Source: Kiritimatiellaceae bacterium
GTDB lineage: Bacteria > Verrucomicrobiota > Kiritimatiellia > Kiritimatiellales > Tichowtungiaceae
Reading direction: 5' to 3'
Assembly (NCBI GenBank): GCA_013141415.1
Contig: JABFQY010000002.1
Coordinates: 124,001-188,000 of the forward strand
DNA: 64,000 bases
Both the position numbers and the translations under genes were made by a program. This document shows, piece after piece, positions 32,559 to 39,375 of this stretch. The notes below the pieces were generated by a model. It was not told where the DNA came from. It did no database searches and worked only from the letters and a program-made list of their open reading frames with translations. Position 1 is the stretch's first letter; each line of letters opens with the position of its first letter.

Positions 32559-32915
32559 ATGAGAGACCATCGGAAGTTGAAAGCGTTTGAATTGGCTGAT
32601 GCACTCGCCCTGTCGGTGTATCGGTTGACGCAAAACTTTCCCAAGGAAGAAACCTTTGGCCTGACTTCACAGATTCGGCGAGCAGGAATTTCGGTTCCAT
32701 CCAACATTGTAGAAGGCTGTGCGCGGAACACAGAGAAAGATTATATCCACTTCCTTGATACGGCCTATGGTTCAGCGAAAGAAGTTGAATATCAGGCATC
32801 CATTGCTCGAAGACTCGGATATTTGAGTGAAACAAAATTAGAAGAAGCTGCGGCTGAAACCGCACGAGTGTTAAACGCTTTGATAAATGCATTACGGAAT
32901 AATGGAGGCGATTAG
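32559..32915 (+). CDS. Four-helix-bundle protein (23S rRNA IVP / S23-like)
   Basis: A 118-residue all-helical protein of the S23/IVP family: D-H-R-K-L-K-A-F-E-L-A at the N-terminus, then SQIRRAGISVPSNIVEGCAR and KDYIHFLDTAYGSAKEVEYQ, the most conserved blocks of the family. Members were first found as ORFs within intervening sequences of 23S rRNA genes and occur widely in intergenic regions; biochemical function is unknown. Here the gene splits gltB from gltD and is bracketed by TAAAGCC-type repeats that start within 10 bp of both its ends, which makes it look like a small mobile or domesticated insert. Confidence 0.92.
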   Translation: MRDHRKLKAFELADALALSVYRLTQNFPKEETFGLTSQIRRAGISVPSNIVEGCARNTEKDYIHFLDTAYGSAKEVEYQASIARRLGYLSETKLEEAAAETARVLNALINALRNNGGD

Positions 32916-34433: not shown

Positions 34434-34473
34434 GCGCAGGGGAGAAGGCGTTAGGCCTTAGGTGACCCGGAGC

Positions 34474-34488
34474 TTCCAAGGACTGGAA
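34474..34488. repeat. TTCCAA-N3-TTGGAA palindrome, copy 4
   Basis: TTCCAA-GGA-CTGGAA, one mismatch, after gltD. Confidence 0.75.
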
Positions 34489-34524
34489 AGATTCCTCGCA
34501 AAGGCGCAAAGCCCGCAGAGTTTT

Positions 34525-34539
34525 TTCCAATGATTGGAC
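34525..34539. repeat. TTCCAA-N3-TTGGAA palindrome, copy 5
   Basis: TTCCAA-TGA-TTGGAC, one terminal mismatch, preceded by a T-run. Confidence 0.75.
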
Positions 34540-34623
34540 TCTGAGCACAGCGAGAGGGGCTTCGCAACCGCGAAACAACGACCACCGGGGTGGCATGCAA
34601 CAAAACCATGGAGGCGGGTTCTT

Positions 34624-35529
34624 TTATTGAGACAGAGCTTCAATTGCAGTTGCTAATTGCCGTAGCTCTTTTCTGATTTCCATAAATTGGGCGTGGCCAA
34701 ACCCATCTTTGTACTGAGTTGAGTTTTCGAGGTATATTCGACCATCTTCTTCTTTGAGAGTAGCTTCTTGATGGGCAAGCTCGTTTCGTAGTTTTTGCAT
34801 TTTGTTGAGGACGTCCAGAAGTCCGTTCGGGAGGCCTTTTAAAACCTCCATGCTATCGAGGCGGTCTCGCACACAGCCGTACTCCATTGCCAATGGATCT
34901 TCTACTGCCGCAATAAAGTTTTCATGAGACATTTCGTCCGCTTGCTTTTTGCAGGCCTCGGCTCTTTTATTGAATCGTTTTGTTGTGCGTTGAACCTGAG
35001 TATCTTTTTGACTGTGATCCAAAGCCCTAAATTTGCGAACAAGCAACAGGCGCAATTTTTTGTCTAACTTGCTCATCTCGTCCAGAACAACCCCGCGCAT
35101 ATTGTTGAGATCACAGATCCGTTTGAGTTGATCTTCGATGATGTCGGAACCATCCCGATGTAAATCGGTTCGGGTGACGATGTAAACCCCGTCAACTCGC
35201 AAGTCGAAGAGTGCTTTACGCATATCTTCAGCCGGCTTGGAGCTGTAAAAAATCATGTCCGTATATATTAGTCGTCGAAGAGAATGAGCTATTTCGGCAC
35301 CGTTTGTTTGGTCTTTCCCTAAATCATAATCAAAAATGATCAGGTCGTATGGGTTGTAGATTTCCAGACGACCTTCGAGTGCTTGTAGGTCGTCGTTGCT
35401 AATAGTTAATCTAGAATCCAAATCCAAGTTGAAGCCGAGTTCGCCAAGTTTTCGCCTTATAGCTTCAACATGAAATTCTACCTCACTCGGTTGATCCTCA
35501 ATCCACAATATTTTGTAATCAATCTTCAT
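34624..35529 (-). CDS. Response regulator with HEPN-like C-terminal motif
   Basis: A 301-residue protein. Residues 1-125 form a receiver domain: acidic pair E11/D12 in LWIEDQ, phospho-acceptor D67 in IIFDYDLG, hydroxyl residues S96/S97 in FYSSKP; the usual switch lysine is not obvious (the segment reads GVYIVTRTD). The output half is helical with no DNA-binding motif. It contains K-L-R-N-E-L-A-H (R248 to H253), matching the R-N-x-x-x-H signature of HEPN ribonucleases. The start overlaps the stop of the GHKL-kinase gene by 4 bp (ATGA), so this is its cognate partner and the last gene of a three-gene operon headed by a DNA methyltransferase. Receiver call is firm; HEPN-type RNase activity is inference. 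Confidence 0.82.
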   Translation of the reverse strand: MKIDYKILWIEDQPSEVEFHVEAIRRKLGELGFNLDLDSRLTISNDDLQALEGRLEIYNPYDLIIFDYDLGKDQTNGAEIAHSLRRLIYTDMIFYSSKPAEDMRKALFDLRVDGVYIVTRTDLHRDGSDIIEDQLKRICDLNNMRGVVLDEMSKLDKKLRLLLVRKFRALDHSQKDTQVQRTTKRFNKRAEACKKQADEMSHENFIAAVEDPLAMEYGCVRDRLDSMEVLKGLPNGLLDVLNKMQKLRNELAHQEATLKEEDGRIYLENSTQYKDGFGHAQFMEIRKELRQLATAIEALSQ

Positions 35530-37880
35530 TTTCCGATCCTGACTATAAAGTGAGTGCCTCGTTTTGGTTGTTCCTTTGACAGGGATATCTCCCCTCCGAT
35601 AGATTCGAATGTCTGTTTACATAGGTATAGGCCCAGACCAGAGCCATCCGTTCGAGAGAAGCCTTTTTCAAAAATACGGGAGGGGTCGCTAATCGATCGG
35701 TCGAGACCCCGTCCATTATCTATGATGTCGATCTGAAGGAAGCCATCTTTTATGGAGATGCCAAACTCAACGCGCGCTGCCTTTGCTTTTTTCGCATTAT
35801 CGATGAGATTTTCTATTGCCATACCGAGCTCAATGGGCTTGAACCTTTTCTCAAACGATTTTTCTGTGCAATCAAAAGAAACCATAATTTTTGATGCATA
35901 TATCTGGGATATATTTTTCAAAAATTCACAGATAAACGCAGCAAGGTCGGTGGTGAGGTATGTGCTGTCCATTCGGAAATTTCCGTGTGTCGCAAACCGC
36001 GAGGCCATTATAATTTTTTCATTAATTTCACGTAAATTTTCAAGCGACTGTTTAATGTTTGGAGGCAGTCTGGGATCGGCTTTATCTTCACTCGGGAGAA
36101 TTTCCTCAAGCTGTACTTTTGCATTGGCCGCATAGATTACGATTTGATGAAGAAAGCCTTCTAGAACTTCCTTATCCCGAGAGCCGCTCCCAAGAAGGAA
36201 GAGGGAACGTTTTTTTTCTTCCTCAAGCTCTACTTGTGCGGCATTGGTTTCTGCTCGAGCTTGTTCTGCTCGAAGGGCTTCTTCTTGGGCTCGTCGTTCG
36301 GCGGCTTTACGAGCTACGGCCTCTTCTTCCGCGATTTTTAACGCTCTGGCTTCGGCCTCTTTGACCTTTTTGAACTCTGCTTCGGCGCGTTGCACATCTT
36401 TTAGAAGCTGATTATCCCCCTGTTTGGCGGCGATGTTATTGAGCCGCGACAGCGTGGCTTCAAGGTCAGTCACCTTGTCACTCAGGATTCCTACTAGATT
36501 TCGGTTGTAATCCAAAACCTTAATAGAACCTGATAATGACAGAGCTTCTACCAATTCGATGATGCGATCACGATTGGTATCCAGCGATATCCTCTCTATG
36601 GTGGAATACTCTTTGTCTAGCTTATCCCTCCATGAAACGCCAACCACATAGGCCTCGAGTTTTTTTATGCAAAGTAGTACGCACTCGTTTAGTTGCTCGC
36701 TTGCAGGCGTGTGAATAAGGCCCTTGTCCCGGCTGGAAGATTCTCTAAACGCAGTTTCATTGCCGTAGACAGATACAAAACCTAGAAGCTCTCTGGTTCC
36801 AAGGTATCGGTTGTATCCCTGCGCCTTTCGTCGATCTAGCCCCCAATAGTCATCACCTTCTTCACCAACGGGATAAACAAGGAATCCGTTTCGGATCAGG
36901 AAGACGGATCCGTACTGTACAGAGGGTATTCCCATACGTCTTCCGAAAGTCATTTTTGCTGAAGTATTCAGATAGGATATCTGACATCTGAATCCTGCCG
37001 TCCGAAGCTCGGATAAGCTTTTTGAGACATCTTCACGAGTCCGATAGATCACCGAACCACGATCCGTAAGGGTGATATCTAGATTCCCTTTGGTATCTAT
37101 CGAGGCATCAAGGGCGGTGGTTTTGTCTTTTAAAACATCAAAAATGTCGTTGGTAATACCTCCGTTGACAACTTCTGCAAAGCGCTCTCCTTTGAGGGCT
37201 TCTTCGCTCTCCTTTTCATCAGAAGAAACTTCTCTATCGCAAAACAGATGAATCTTGCCTTGGTCTTCTAGATTCTCGAAAGGGGGAATCAACTTCGAGA
37301 GCGAGCGATGCAGGCGGAGAAGCTTATTTCTATCCCATGAGCCGGCTTCACGCAAATCCGAGATCTCAAGGATGACACCGTGCTTTAACTTTCGCGGACC
37401 ATTTGGGAATTCAAAATGAGGAAGTTGATTATAAGTTACAGCGACATCCCGGAATTCTTGTTTGGCGTCTTTTTCGAAGGCACCCCAATTGACCTTTAAG
37501 TTGTGAACATAGGTTTCGCTGGATATTTTCGACTGAATTCGGAGGTGTCCCCCTAGTCTATCGCATGAGAATCGGCCCACCCCCTTGTTGCCCGCAAAGA
37601 TTTTCCTTTGCGACCGCTCAACCCCTTCTTTTTTTGCGGAGTATGCAACAAAAAGCCATTTGTCCCTTAAATCGGCCTCATCCATTCCATTTCCGTCATC
37701 AGCGATGATGATTTTTTGGTTCTTAGGATCGTTCAGAAGAAAGGATACCTCAATGTTTTTGGCTTCAGCATCGAACGAGTTTTTGACCAGCTCAAAGATG
37801 GCAACGAAATCATCTGTGATGAGGTCTTTCCCGATAATACTTTTGAGCGCAGAACTGATTCGAAATTTAACCGTACTCAT
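35526..37880 (-). CDS. Double-GHKL ATPase: MORC/Hsp90-like module fused to histidine-kinase module
   Basis: A 784-residue soluble protein. The N-terminal GHKL ATPase has N-box E30/N34 in FELVKNSFDAEA, G1 DDGNGM near residues 61-66 and G2 GNKGVGR at 97-103, the style of MORC/paraMORC and Hsp90-like ATPases rather than kinases. Residues about 465-560 are a long charged coiled coil (repeated A-E-E-E-A-x-R-K-A-A). After it comes GFLHQIVIYA with H578, a possible phospho-accepting histidine, and a C-terminal HATPase with N-box ENLIDNAKKA (about 690), G1 DNGRG (721-725) and G2 GSGLGL (746-751). No membrane helix, so the signal is cytoplasmic. It overlaps the methyltransferase and receiver genes by 4 bp each. 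Confidence 0.85.
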   Translation of the reverse strand: MSTVKFRISSALKSIIGKDLITDDFVAIFELVKNSFDAEAKNIEVSFLLNDPKNQKIIIADDGNGMDEADLRDKWLFVAYSAKKEGVERSQRKIFAGNKGVGRFSCDRLGGHLRIQSKISSETYVHNLKVNWGAFEKDAKQEFRDVAVTYNQLPHFEFPNGPRKLKHGVILEISDLREAGSWDRNKLLRLHRSLSKLIPPFENLEDQGKIHLFCDREVSSDEKESEEALKGERFAEVVNGGITNDIFDVLKDKTTALDASIDTKGNLDITLTDRGSVIYRTREDVSKSLSELRTAGFRCQISYLNTSAKMTFGRRMGIPSVQYGSVFLIRNGFLVYPVGEEGDDYWGLDRRKAQGYNRYLGTRELLGFVSVYGNETAFRESSSRDKGLIHTPASEQLNECVLLCIKKLEAYVVGVSWRDKLDKEYSTIERISLDTNRDRIIELVEALSLSGSIKVLDYNRNLVGILSDKVTDLEATLSRLNNIAAKQGDNQLLKDVQRAEAEFKKVKEAEARALKIAEEEAVARKAAERRAQEEALRAEQARAETNAAQVELEEEKKRSLFLLGSGSRDKEVLEGFLHQIVIYAANAKVQLEEILPSEDKADPRLPPNIKQSLENLREINEKIIMASRFATHGNFRMDSTYLTTDLAAFICEFLKNISQIYASKIMVSFDCTEKSFEKRFKPIELGMAIENLIDNAKKAKAARVEFGISIKDGFLQIDIIDNGRGLDRSISDPSRIFEKGFSRTDGSGLGLYLCKQTFESIGGEISLSKEQPKRGTHFIVRIGK

Positions 37881-39070
37881 ATCAACGCCTCCCCAAGCAC
37901 CCGCCCCGCGAGTTCTGCAAACAGTGGCGGGATGGCATTCCCAATTTGCGAGTAGCGGGGAACTTCGATTTTTCGTCGTGAGCCGCCGGTTGTGTATTTA
38001 CCCTTGAATTCGTACCAGTCGGGAAATGATTGGATGCGCGCATATTCACGGACGGTCAAAATTCTAGGTTCGCAGTAATGGACGTAATCGTCGGGCAGAG
38101 TAGTCAGTGTGGGCGTTGGCTCAGAGGCTCGTAGTAATTTTGTACTGCTTTTTCTCGTGTTGAATTGTTTCTGAACATCTCTGGAGGTTAATTGGTTTTC
38201 AATGATTGCGGCAAATTTATCCTGCACAGCTGGGGAATGTTTGGCGAATCGGTGGCTGTCGGGAGTTTTTCCTGCGCCCGTTCTCATTAATTTTTGGTAC
38301 GGCGAAAATGCGCGCGATGCGTATTTCCCAGCCATAAATCCAGGCGTGTCGGGTGAATCAAATTCTCCGTGACCTCGCTCAATGTCGGATATGGCCTGCT
38401 TTAATGAGGGTGTGGCAGAAAGCTCTTTTTTACCCAAGAAGTCTGATGCCGCCGCTTTTATGTTTTTAAAAAATTTGTCGGCTGTGCCGTTTCGAGTACC
38501 GACAATAATGAACCGTTTGCGCTGCTGAGGAACCCCGAACTCAGAAAAGTCGAGCACGTGCGGCACAGCATCTTCGTACCCAAGAGCATGCAGTTTTTTT
38601 AGCACGGTTTGTGAAACGGGGGTTCCTCGTGTATCGCCAGTTTTAAATCCGACACTAAATCCTTTTACGTTTTCAAAGAGAATCGCCCGGGGCTGTACGA
38701 GTTCAATGAATTCCAGATAGGAGTGTACCAAATTGTTGCGGTGGTCTTTTTCAGCCCTGCGGCCAGCCAGCGAGAACCCCTGACATGGCGGTCCGCCAGC
38801 AACAAGATCCACCTTTCCCCGAAGAGCGATAAGGTTGGCTCGGTGGGTTATTAGCAACGACTTAATATCATGGTTTTGTTTGCGGAGCCATTCCGGCCAA
38901 GAGAAGTGTTGGTGGCTGTCTATGAGGTTGTGCTTCAGCGTTTTAAAGGCGTCCGCATTTTTCTCCACGGCAAAAAGACCATGCCATCGCTCGGAGTTAT
39001 AGAGACCCAGAGAAAGTCCGCCGCAACCAGCAAACAGATCAATATACGTTAGCTTTTTCTGGATTTTCAT
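37877..39070 (-). CDS. DNA (cytosine-5)-methyltransferase
   Basis: A 397-residue C5-cytosine methyltransferase with all catalytic motifs in order: motif I DLFAGCGGLSLGL (residues 11-23), motif IV GGPPCQGFS with nucleophile C96, motif VI ENV (133-135), motif VIII QQRKRFIIVG, and motifs IX/X including REYARIQSFPDWY and QIGNAIPP. The target-recognition region between VIII and IX is about 100 residues and its specificity cannot be read. No restriction endonuclease or vsr gene is adjacent. Its stop overlaps the double-GHKL gene by 4 bp, so it is the first gene of the MTase-GHKL-receiver operon. Base composition is clearly more A/T-rich than gltD or the PEP-binding gene beside it. Confidence 0.95.
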   Translation of the reverse strand: MKIQKKLTYIDLFAGCGGLSLGLYNSERWHGLFAVEKNADAFKTLKHNLIDSHQHFSWPEWLRKQNHDIKSLLITHRANLIALRGKVDLVAGGPPCQGFSLAGRRAEKDHRNNLVHSYLEFIELVQPRAILFENVKGFSVGFKTGDTRGTPVSQTVLKKLHALGYEDAVPHVLDFSEFGVPQQRKRFIIVGTRNGTADKFFKNIKAAASDFLGKKELSATPSLKQAISDIERGHGEFDSPDTPGFMAGKYASRAFSPYQKLMRTGAGKTPDSHRFAKHSPAVQDKFAAIIENQLTSRDVQKQFNTRKSSTKLLRASEPTPTLTTLPDDYVHYCEPRILTVREYARIQSFPDWYEFKGKYTTGGSRRKIEVPRYSQIGNAIPPLFAELAGRVLGEALI

Positions 39071-39232
39071 GAGTTTTACTATCGGGCAAGAAGGTACAAA
39101 CTATTTGGTTGTTTGCAAAGCCTATCCTTTTAACGGCTAAGTGTCCAGGCGCTTTAAATGAAAGATGGCTCGTTGAGCAACGCGTCAATTTTGCGAAGAA
39201 AAAAGGAAAAATGGTTTCATACTCCAGCAATC

Positions 39233-39247
39233 TCCCAAAAATTGGAA
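39233..39247. repeat. TTCCAA-N3-TTGGAA palindrome, copy 6
   Basis: TCCCAA-AAA-TTGGAA, one mismatch. Confidence 0.65.
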
Positions 39248-39280
39248 CCGGCCTTCGCCAAAGGCTTCGGCGGTCAAGAA

Positions 39281-39304
39281 CGCGGTGAGGACACCGCGTC
39301 TACA
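39281..39304. repeat. TGTAG-hairpin element, single unit
   Basis: Hairpin CGCGGTG/CACCGCG (39281-39298, loop AGGA) followed by TCTACA (39299-39304), in the orientation of the left half of the paired elements. Confidence 0.7.
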
Positions 39305-39305
39305 T

Positions 39306-39320
39306 TTCCAAGGCTTGGAA
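39306..39320. repeat. TTCCAA-N3-TTGGAA palindrome, copy 7
   Basis: Perfect arms around GGC, directly after a hairpin unit; same core as copy 3. Confidence 0.85.
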
Positions 39321-39357
39321 CTTTTCGTGGATTTTTGTGTTTTTCGTGGCGATTAAT

Positions 39358-39372
39358 TTCCAAGGTTTGGAA
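39358..39372. repeat. TTCCAA-N3-TTGGAA palindrome, copy 8
   Basis: Perfect arms around GGT, directly before the TAAAGCC-like array. Confidence 0.85.
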
Positions 39373-39375
39373 CCC

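Follow-up and report, generated by a model that had tools for sequence, protein, structure and literature searches.

Among the systems described so far, the closest to the locus examined here are the elements reported by Bellieny-Rabelo et al. (2021; PMC8011034), which combine a C5-cytosine methylase, a kinase with the domain succession HATPase_c_3...HATPase_c, and a receiver (HEF_HK/Response_reg_2), and which were described without an effector, a function, or an exchange of cassettes. The MORC and paraMORC proteins (Iyer et al., 2008; PMC2292703) likewise have an N-terminal GHKL ATPase beside DNA methylases, in restriction-modification operons, and the Shedu protein VcSduA likewise contains a GHKL-ATPase half, there accompanied by a nuclease, both active-site residue sets being needed for defence (PMC12137116). 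The HEPN superfamily, to which RNases of defence and toxin systems belong, has an active site of the form Rx4-6H, with a polar residue after the R, at a helix end, and Abi2 is counted as one of its families (PMC3710099). Finally, the figure legend of a 2026 paper in Science names HATPase and REC among predicted systems containing domains for which a defensive role still awaits validation; our literature search for a two-component methylase defence system, beyond whose reach lay preprints and subscription journals, returned only that legend and PMC8011034, and an overlapping description may exist.

The locus considered here is a three-gene operon in the genome of a Kiritimatiellaceae bacterium, located within a window—by which term we mean the whole stretch of DNA analysed—of 64,000 nucleotides, and encodes a C5-cytosine DNA methyltransferase (MTase), a double-GHKL kinase, and a response regulator in which a receiver precedes a predicted HEPN domain (Table 1). 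With the elements of PMC8011034 the operon has in common the gene order of C5 methylase, kinase with HATPase_c_3 plus HATPase_c, and receiver; but HEF_HK (PF19191) matched none of 60 kinases of the window family, and Response_reg_2 (PF19192) matched 4 of the 60 receivers weakly, with a best E of 0.0023. Because a scan of 289 genomes of the window's phylum found no PF19192, the controls included, the search was moved to an order in which that family exists, and the seven true loci examined there, all from one enterobacterial order, had kinases of about 990 aa and receivers of 542–634 aa, as compared to 784 and 301 aa in the window. Since PF19191 and PF19192 do not cover the window family, the latter is a second family that runs parallel to them and is of their kind, furnished in addition with an effector, a joint, and an exchange. 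The initial annotation had singled out the pairing of a cytosine methyltransferase with a two-component system as unusual; the pairing proved to be conserved, while its general kind, given PMC8011034, is not new.

The remaining comparisons are partial. Relative to the MORC and paraMORC proteins, the unit has in addition a receiver, a word absent from the paper (PMC2292703), and a complete histidine-kinase core; and relative to the HEPN RNases (PMC3710099), with which the window protein shares the R-polar-x3-H at a helix end, the predicted HEPN domain is fused behind a phospho-receiver. VcSduA, unlike the window unit, is a single protein with a PD-(D/E)xK nuclease and with neither a methylase nor a phosphorelay. 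Type II restriction-modification shares the C5 methyltransferase, whereas a cognate endonuclease occurs here only in the HpaII variant described below. Detocs, a two-component anti-phage system, pairs a kinase with a receiver-linked toxic effector, as does the window unit, but is not known to include a methylase or a MORC-like ATPase, and its effector cleaves ATP.

The Operon and Its Products

Adjacent genes overlap by 4 bp, at 37877–37880 between the MTase and the kinase and at 35526–35529 between the kinase and the receiver. The operon is thus confirmed as initially annotated, with the same gene order and overlaps and with coordinates of the open reading frames that agree. The MTase carries the motif GGPPCQGF with C96, and C96, ENV, and further motif residues are invariant among its relatives. 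In the kinase a MORC/MutL-like N-terminal ATPase is succeeded by a middle domain, a coiled coil, and the kinase core. The window's receiver protein obtained sub-threshold Pfam matches only (Response_reg_2 at 13.8 bits, the cut-off being 27); the receiver fold is confirmed by the structure model, which superimposes on the ComE receiver with a Z of 15.8 and an rmsd of 2.2 over 127 residues. A cognate DNA endonuclease was found neither in the operon with Pfam nor by eye among the flanking open reading frames of the window, and a promoter and terminator scan yielded signals at chance level only.

Table 1. Features of the operon in the window, together with variant loci (locus coordinates) cited in the text
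Feature	Coordinates	Strand	Basis
C5-cytosine DNA methyltransferase (MTase), 397 aa	37877..39070	minus	PF00145 DNA_methylase, E 4.7e-53 (Pfam)
Double-GHKL kinase, 784 aa	35526..37880	minus	Pfam HATPase_c_3 + HATPase_c
Receiver-HEPN (predicted) response regulator, 301 aa	34624..35529	minus	Structure model (pLDDT 89.8), receiver fold, HEPN motif
Kinase N-terminal HATPase_c_3, residues 26-141	37458..37805	minus	Pfam; E30, N34, D61, G63, G65 invariant
Coiled-coil joint, kinase residues 541-571	36168..36260	minus	Identity drop in different-effector pairs; output cassette exchanged there
H578, candidate phospho-histidine (coding-strand CAT)	36147..36149	minus	Invariant in 60/60 kinases
Kinase C-terminal HATPase_c, residues 682-782	35535..35837	minus	Pfam; N695, G748, G750 invariant
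D67, phospho-acceptor aspartate (coding-strand GAT)	35329..35331	minus	Invariant in 60/60 receiver proteins
Predicted HEPN RNase domain, residues 139-301	34627..35115	minus	Separate model; Pfam HEPN matches in relatives
HEPN active-site motif R248-N249-E-L-A-H253	34771..34788	minus	R and H invariant in 60/60, N in 57/60
Inserted A/T-rich segment with the operon	34463..39371		Alignment edges in sister genome L142; GC profile
HpaII-variant loci	L057:4646-9603; L058:2792-6532; L063:4655-9612; L097:4645-9656		
Plasmid relatives	L006:5646-10780 and L009:5622-10791 (MBL-fold gene downstream); L007:5550-10517 (HNH downstream)		

The operon lies in an insert of about 4.9 kb beside gltD, and the GC content, of 0.52–0.59 on both flanks, is 0.43–0.49 across 35–39 kb. 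Among 14 genomes of the family, the kinase was found in its own genome only and was absent from the 13 others. In the sister genome L142 the alignment with the window ends at 34462 and resumes at 39372, and in the sister genome L143 it ends at 34437 and resumes at 39374, with other DNA in between; this makes the insertion site next to gltD a variable one. The GC dip and the alignment gap bear out the earlier description of an A/T-richer operon inserted beside gltD, and the mobile, defence-like setting proposed for that operon is likewise supported. The operon is probably a recent arrival, moved horizontally; direct repeats were sought at the island ends, and none was convincing. The stretch from gltD to the gene for an 865-aa protein differs in L142 (2208–4783), which carries an ATPase-like gene of 383 aa there, and in L143 (1228–4176). 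Between gltB and gltD the window contains a 118-aa gene (32559–32915), four-helix-bundle-like by eye, which is kept in the sister genomes.

Distribution of the Unit

Three genomes of the same phylum but from other families have these genes too, identically ordered and overlapping; in the locus L017 the receiver gene runs past the contig end. When species genomes were scanned once with the kinase alignment, 80 loci emerged, which belong to proteobacteria, Bacteroidota, Firmicutes, other bacteria, and several archaeal assemblies; with one duplicate discarded and the three same-phylum loci included, the set comprised 82, in which the gene calls are our own and many of the relatives are metagenome bins. 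A C5 MTase was present in 79 of these loci and adjacent in 77 (within the fetched locus), the placement being adjacent upstream on the same strand in 64, adjacent and convergent downstream in 12, and otherwise in 3. One of the three loci without an MTase is just 3.9 kb long; the other two, L039 and L071, have enough flank. The receiver gene comes after the kinase, mostly overlapping with it or a few bases apart.

The three genes, for which a search as a conserved neighbourhood had been proposed in the initial annotation, do co-occur, and since 79 of the 82 independent loci have a C5 MTase, the arrangement is not one of chance. For the notion that the genes are accidental neighbours belonging to unrelated pathways we found no supporting point, and that notion is refuted by the near-constant MTase, by the overlap of the genes throughout, and by the covariation along the chain described below; the three genes almost certainly constitute one functional unit.

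On viral contigs, the search with the kinase alignment returned 16 loci, and about a dozen viral contigs have the unit; a search of viral contigs with a single kinase sequence gave no match, nor did a tblastn of plasmids with the receiver protein. In the viral contigs L151 and L154 the unit is found beside phage-lysis-like genes, and in L160 and L161 distant relatives adjoin tail tape-measure-like and late-control-like genes, all of these genes being named by eye. The distant phage-contig version (L160:6709–11450, L161:6703–11450, L162:6485–11427) consists of a C5 methylase, a kinase of 702–794 aa, and a second protein of 443–452 aa, which in L160 had no Pfam match. Two loci are interrupted: in the viral contig L156 (7989–11972) the kinase gene contains an opposite-strand open reading frame of 494 aa, and in L034 (9295–11440) a transposon with integrase-like open reading frames lies inside the receiver-HEPN gene, the HEPN part and its motif being located beyond the transposon.

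The Kinase, the Receiver, and the Predicted HEPN Output

The alignment of 60 kinases, whose pairwise identity averages 37%, contains 39 invariant columns, including E30, N34, D61, G63, and G65 of the N-terminal ATPase as well as H578 and N695, G748, and G750 of the kinase ATPase; both HATPase_c_3 and HATPase_c were detected in all 60. E30 occupies the position of the hydrolytic glutamate of MutL-type GHKL ATPases. The kinase profile aligns with structures of kinase DHp and CA domains at an E of about 1e-17, and HisKA matched one of the 60 kinases in Pfam. In the profile alignment with ZraS the register is lost at the histidine, H578 not lying opposite the known phospho-site of ZraS, for which reason H578 is a candidate by invariance and not by superposition. 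In L018 the G1 box of the kinase looks degenerate. Among the switch residues of the receiver, D67, an E or D at 11, and an S or T at 96 are present in 60 of 60 proteins, with a D or N at 12. A phosphotransfer from H578 to D67 is very likely, and the exchange of kinase core and receiver together, described below, lends it indirect support, being what cognate phosphotransfer pairs would require. The MORC-like ATPase half and the cytoplasmic two-component pair proposed at first reading are supported, with HATPase_c_3 and its invariant motif residues in 60 of 60 relatives and with the residue numbers H578 and D67 both correct and each invariant in 60 relatives.

The output domain was approached through 60 receiver proteins with lengths of 265 aa or more, picked on that criterion rather than by motif, whose mean identity is 24% and in which only six columns are invariant: D67, Y95, R145, G146, R248, and H253. 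N249 is present in 57 of the 60, and a D or E at 156 in 58, this conserved acidic position being consistent with the second one reported for HEPN. As the receiver dominated the structure search with the whole protein, the C-terminal domain was modelled separately (pLDDT 86), and in that model R110 lies inside the helix 99–114 with H115 immediately after (model numbering). When 24,736 Pfam models were compared with the 60 C-terminal domains, the top three—HEPN_RiboL-PSP (7 domains), HEPN_Swt1 (5), and Abi_2 (4)—were all HEPN. Structure comparison returned about 14 HEPN chains, with HepT-like toxins, HI0074, sacsin HEPN, and Csm6 among them, at a Z of 5–6.6, which is also the range of unrelated helical bundles, so that this comparison supports a HEPN assignment without proving it. 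Foldseek with the C-terminal model gave no significant match, the sequence profile of the domain gave no HEPN match in the PDB, and PADLOC assigned no name to the receiver proteins or to the caspase-like protein described below. Judging from the motif, its place at a helix end, and the Pfam matches, the C-terminal domain is very probably a HEPN RNase, in which form the RNase-type output suspected at the outset is supported. The papers that we searched contained no description of a REC-HEPN response regulator.

Further genes accompany the receiver in some loci. In L050 (10213–10887) and L091 (10460–11149) a calcineurin-like phosphoesterase gene, identified with Pfam in L050, overlaps the end of the receiver-HEPN gene and could encode a further effector or regulator; and in L043 (10210–10683) and L148 (11404–11859) the receiver is followed by a similar small gene of 151–157 aa, HAD-phosphatase-like by eye.

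Alternative Effectors and Partners

Twelve loci have a receiver protein of about 230 aa without the HEPN motif, and in 11 of these the next gene, overlapping or abutting, encodes a protein of about 220 aa in which G-H-G and C-x-S are invariant; the contig of the twelfth, L056, stops 97 aa into the next gene. The profile of the 220-aa protein matched in the PDB almost only caspase-1, in the His-Cys region and weakly (E 0.075–0.9), from which we predict a caspase/CHAT-like effector. Four loci contain an HpaII-type restriction endonuclease (PF09561; E 1e-141 and 1e-144 in the two loci checked) between the methylase and the kinase, the regulator being a bare receiver of 124–138 aa; this variant seems to be a restriction-modification system wired to a two-component pair. 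L097 has, in addition, a Vsr. On plasmids, distant double-GHKL relatives are found beside adenine or type I methyltransferases.

These substitutions bear on whether the unit might be an ordinary two-component system regulating restriction-modification or host genes, with a receiver C-terminal domain that would bind RNA or protein and cut nothing. A role in the control of restriction-modification was speculated on in PMC8011034, and the kinase and the receiver do look complete; but no output domain of a DNA-binding kind came to light, the HEPN active site is constant among proteins whose mean identity is 24%, and the output is elsewhere swapped for a caspase-like protein or a restriction enzyme, all of which makes ordinary regulation very improbable.

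Exchange of the Output Cassette

The loci L066, with HEPN, and L089, with the caspase-like protein, have methylases that are 93% identical and kinases that are 78–94% identical from residue 1 to about 500, as opposed to 22–39% in the kinase C-half and 28% in the receivers. In 34 different-effector pairs with sensing halves that are nearly identical, drawn from 22 loci, the identity equalled that of same-effector pairs in all 30-residue bins up to residue 541, and then fell from 0.56 to 0.26 in 541–571 and to 0.17 in 571–601, thus placing the breakpoint just before H578. We built trees of both halves (short searches, LG+G4) with effector labels fixed beforehand: on the N-half tree the caspase-like label takes nine changes, seven of them forced by well-supported branches, and a single caspase-like clade is rejected (p-AU 1.9e-52), whereas on the C-half tree the caspase-like loci constitute one clade with 98% support. 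Cassettes are exchanged also where the effector type stays the same, since L018 and each of L038, L046, and L077, which all have HEPN, share 23–24% identity in the kinase C-half and over 60% in the N-half. Mis-binned assemblies were considered as the source of these exchanges and rejected, L066, a Flavobacterium locus, and L067, which has the caspase-like protein, being named strains and not metagenome bins. The kinase-plus-killer half is swapped many times among relatives as a single cassette, which exchangeable output half, invisible to the initial annotation, is new here and constitutes our strongest evidence for the unit's working mode.

A change of killing enzyme, repeated on a constant sensor, is typical of abortive-infection systems. 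The alternative of a selfish addiction unit supposes that the MTase quiets the kinase and that, once the operon or the mark is lost, the residual kinase fires the HEPN toxin and kills the cells concerned, phage defence being secondary. Such a unit would suit the mobile and patchy distribution and the almost constant presence of the MTase, and restriction-modification units are known to act in that manner (PMC8011034, discussion); nevertheless, addiction alone does not explain the repeated exchange of the killing enzyme, and we consider it unlikely as the principal explanation, the two roles being mutually compatible.

When pairwise identities in 67 loci were compared by partial rank correlation, links appeared between the methylase and the kinase N-half (0.34), the N-half and the C-half (0.30), and the C-half and the receiver (0.50), with a permutation p of 0.001 each, while the remaining three, of −0.002 to 0.025, were not significant; pairwise data are non-independent, and the permutations correct for shared ancestry incompletely. 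The correlations are nevertheless in line with both trees and breakpoints, linkage of similarity being confined to neighbours in the chain of MTase, kinase N-half, kinase C-half, and response regulator. On these correlations depends in part whether the kinase might detect infection by some other sign, be it DNA ends, bases modified by the phage, a protein of the phage, or a nucleotide state, with the MTase protecting or tuning and the relay to HEPN unchanged. GHKL halves in other defence proteins, such as VcSduA, work without a methylase, and double-GHKL kinases pair with differing methylase types, which circumstances speak for that possibility; the C5 MTase in 79 of 82 loci and its covariation with the kinase N-half, however, argue for direct coupling, and we accordingly regard the sensing of another sign as improbable.

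Proposed Mechanism

The explanation that we favour, and to which we attach a moderate degree of confidence, is an abortive-infection phosphorelay gated by the state of the DNA, whose phosphotransfer, RNase activity, trigger, and phage protection we infer. The C5 MTase would mark the cell's own DNA, and jointly with the kinase's MORC-like GHKL half it would check DNA for the mark; when unmarked or foreign DNA is met, the coiled coil would allow the C-terminal kinase core to phosphorylate H578, from which the phosphate would pass to D67 of the receiver; and the phosphorylated receiver would then release the HEPN RNase fused to it (R248-N-x3-H253), which would cleave RNA and halt the infected cell. 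The order of the signal would thereby be that of the evolutionary chain, with methylase and MORC-like ATPase sensing, the coiled coil transmitting, phosphotransfer committing, and HEPN killing.

In favour of this phosphorelay we count the occurrence of the unit in 79 of 82 loci, the invariant H578, D67, R248, and H253, the HEPN assignment, the breakpoint and the exchange of effectors, the chain-only correlations, the replacement by caspase-like and HpaII proteins, the carriage on viral contigs, and the recent insertion at a variable site; and against it the HEPN Z of 5–6.6, the ZraS misregister, the G1 box of L018, and the loci L039 and L071 without a nearby MTase. A role of the unit against invaders is likely. 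That a missing methyl mark is the trigger we would give an even chance, on the basis of the near-universal methylase, its covariation with the N-half, and the pairing of double-GHKL kinases with other methylase types. Slightly better than even are the chances that the family represents an immune chassis of wide distribution, with a MORC-type sensor coupled to a methylase and connected by a His-Asp phosphorelay to killing outputs that replace one another—a HEPN RNase, a caspase-like protease, or a bare receiver accompanied by a restriction enzyme—the entire cassette of kinase core, receiver, and effector being traded at a fixed coiled-coil joint.

The guild of methylase, GHKL kinase, and response regulator, described in 2021 without a function, becomes a testable circuit, now with a predicted trigger, phospho-residues, a joint, and killing enzymes; if the reading is true, a two-component phosphorelay links the surveillance of DNA state to cell death. 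The natural chimeras, in marking the boundary between sensor and output, moreover offer a direct route to what the bacterial MORC-like ATPases sense.
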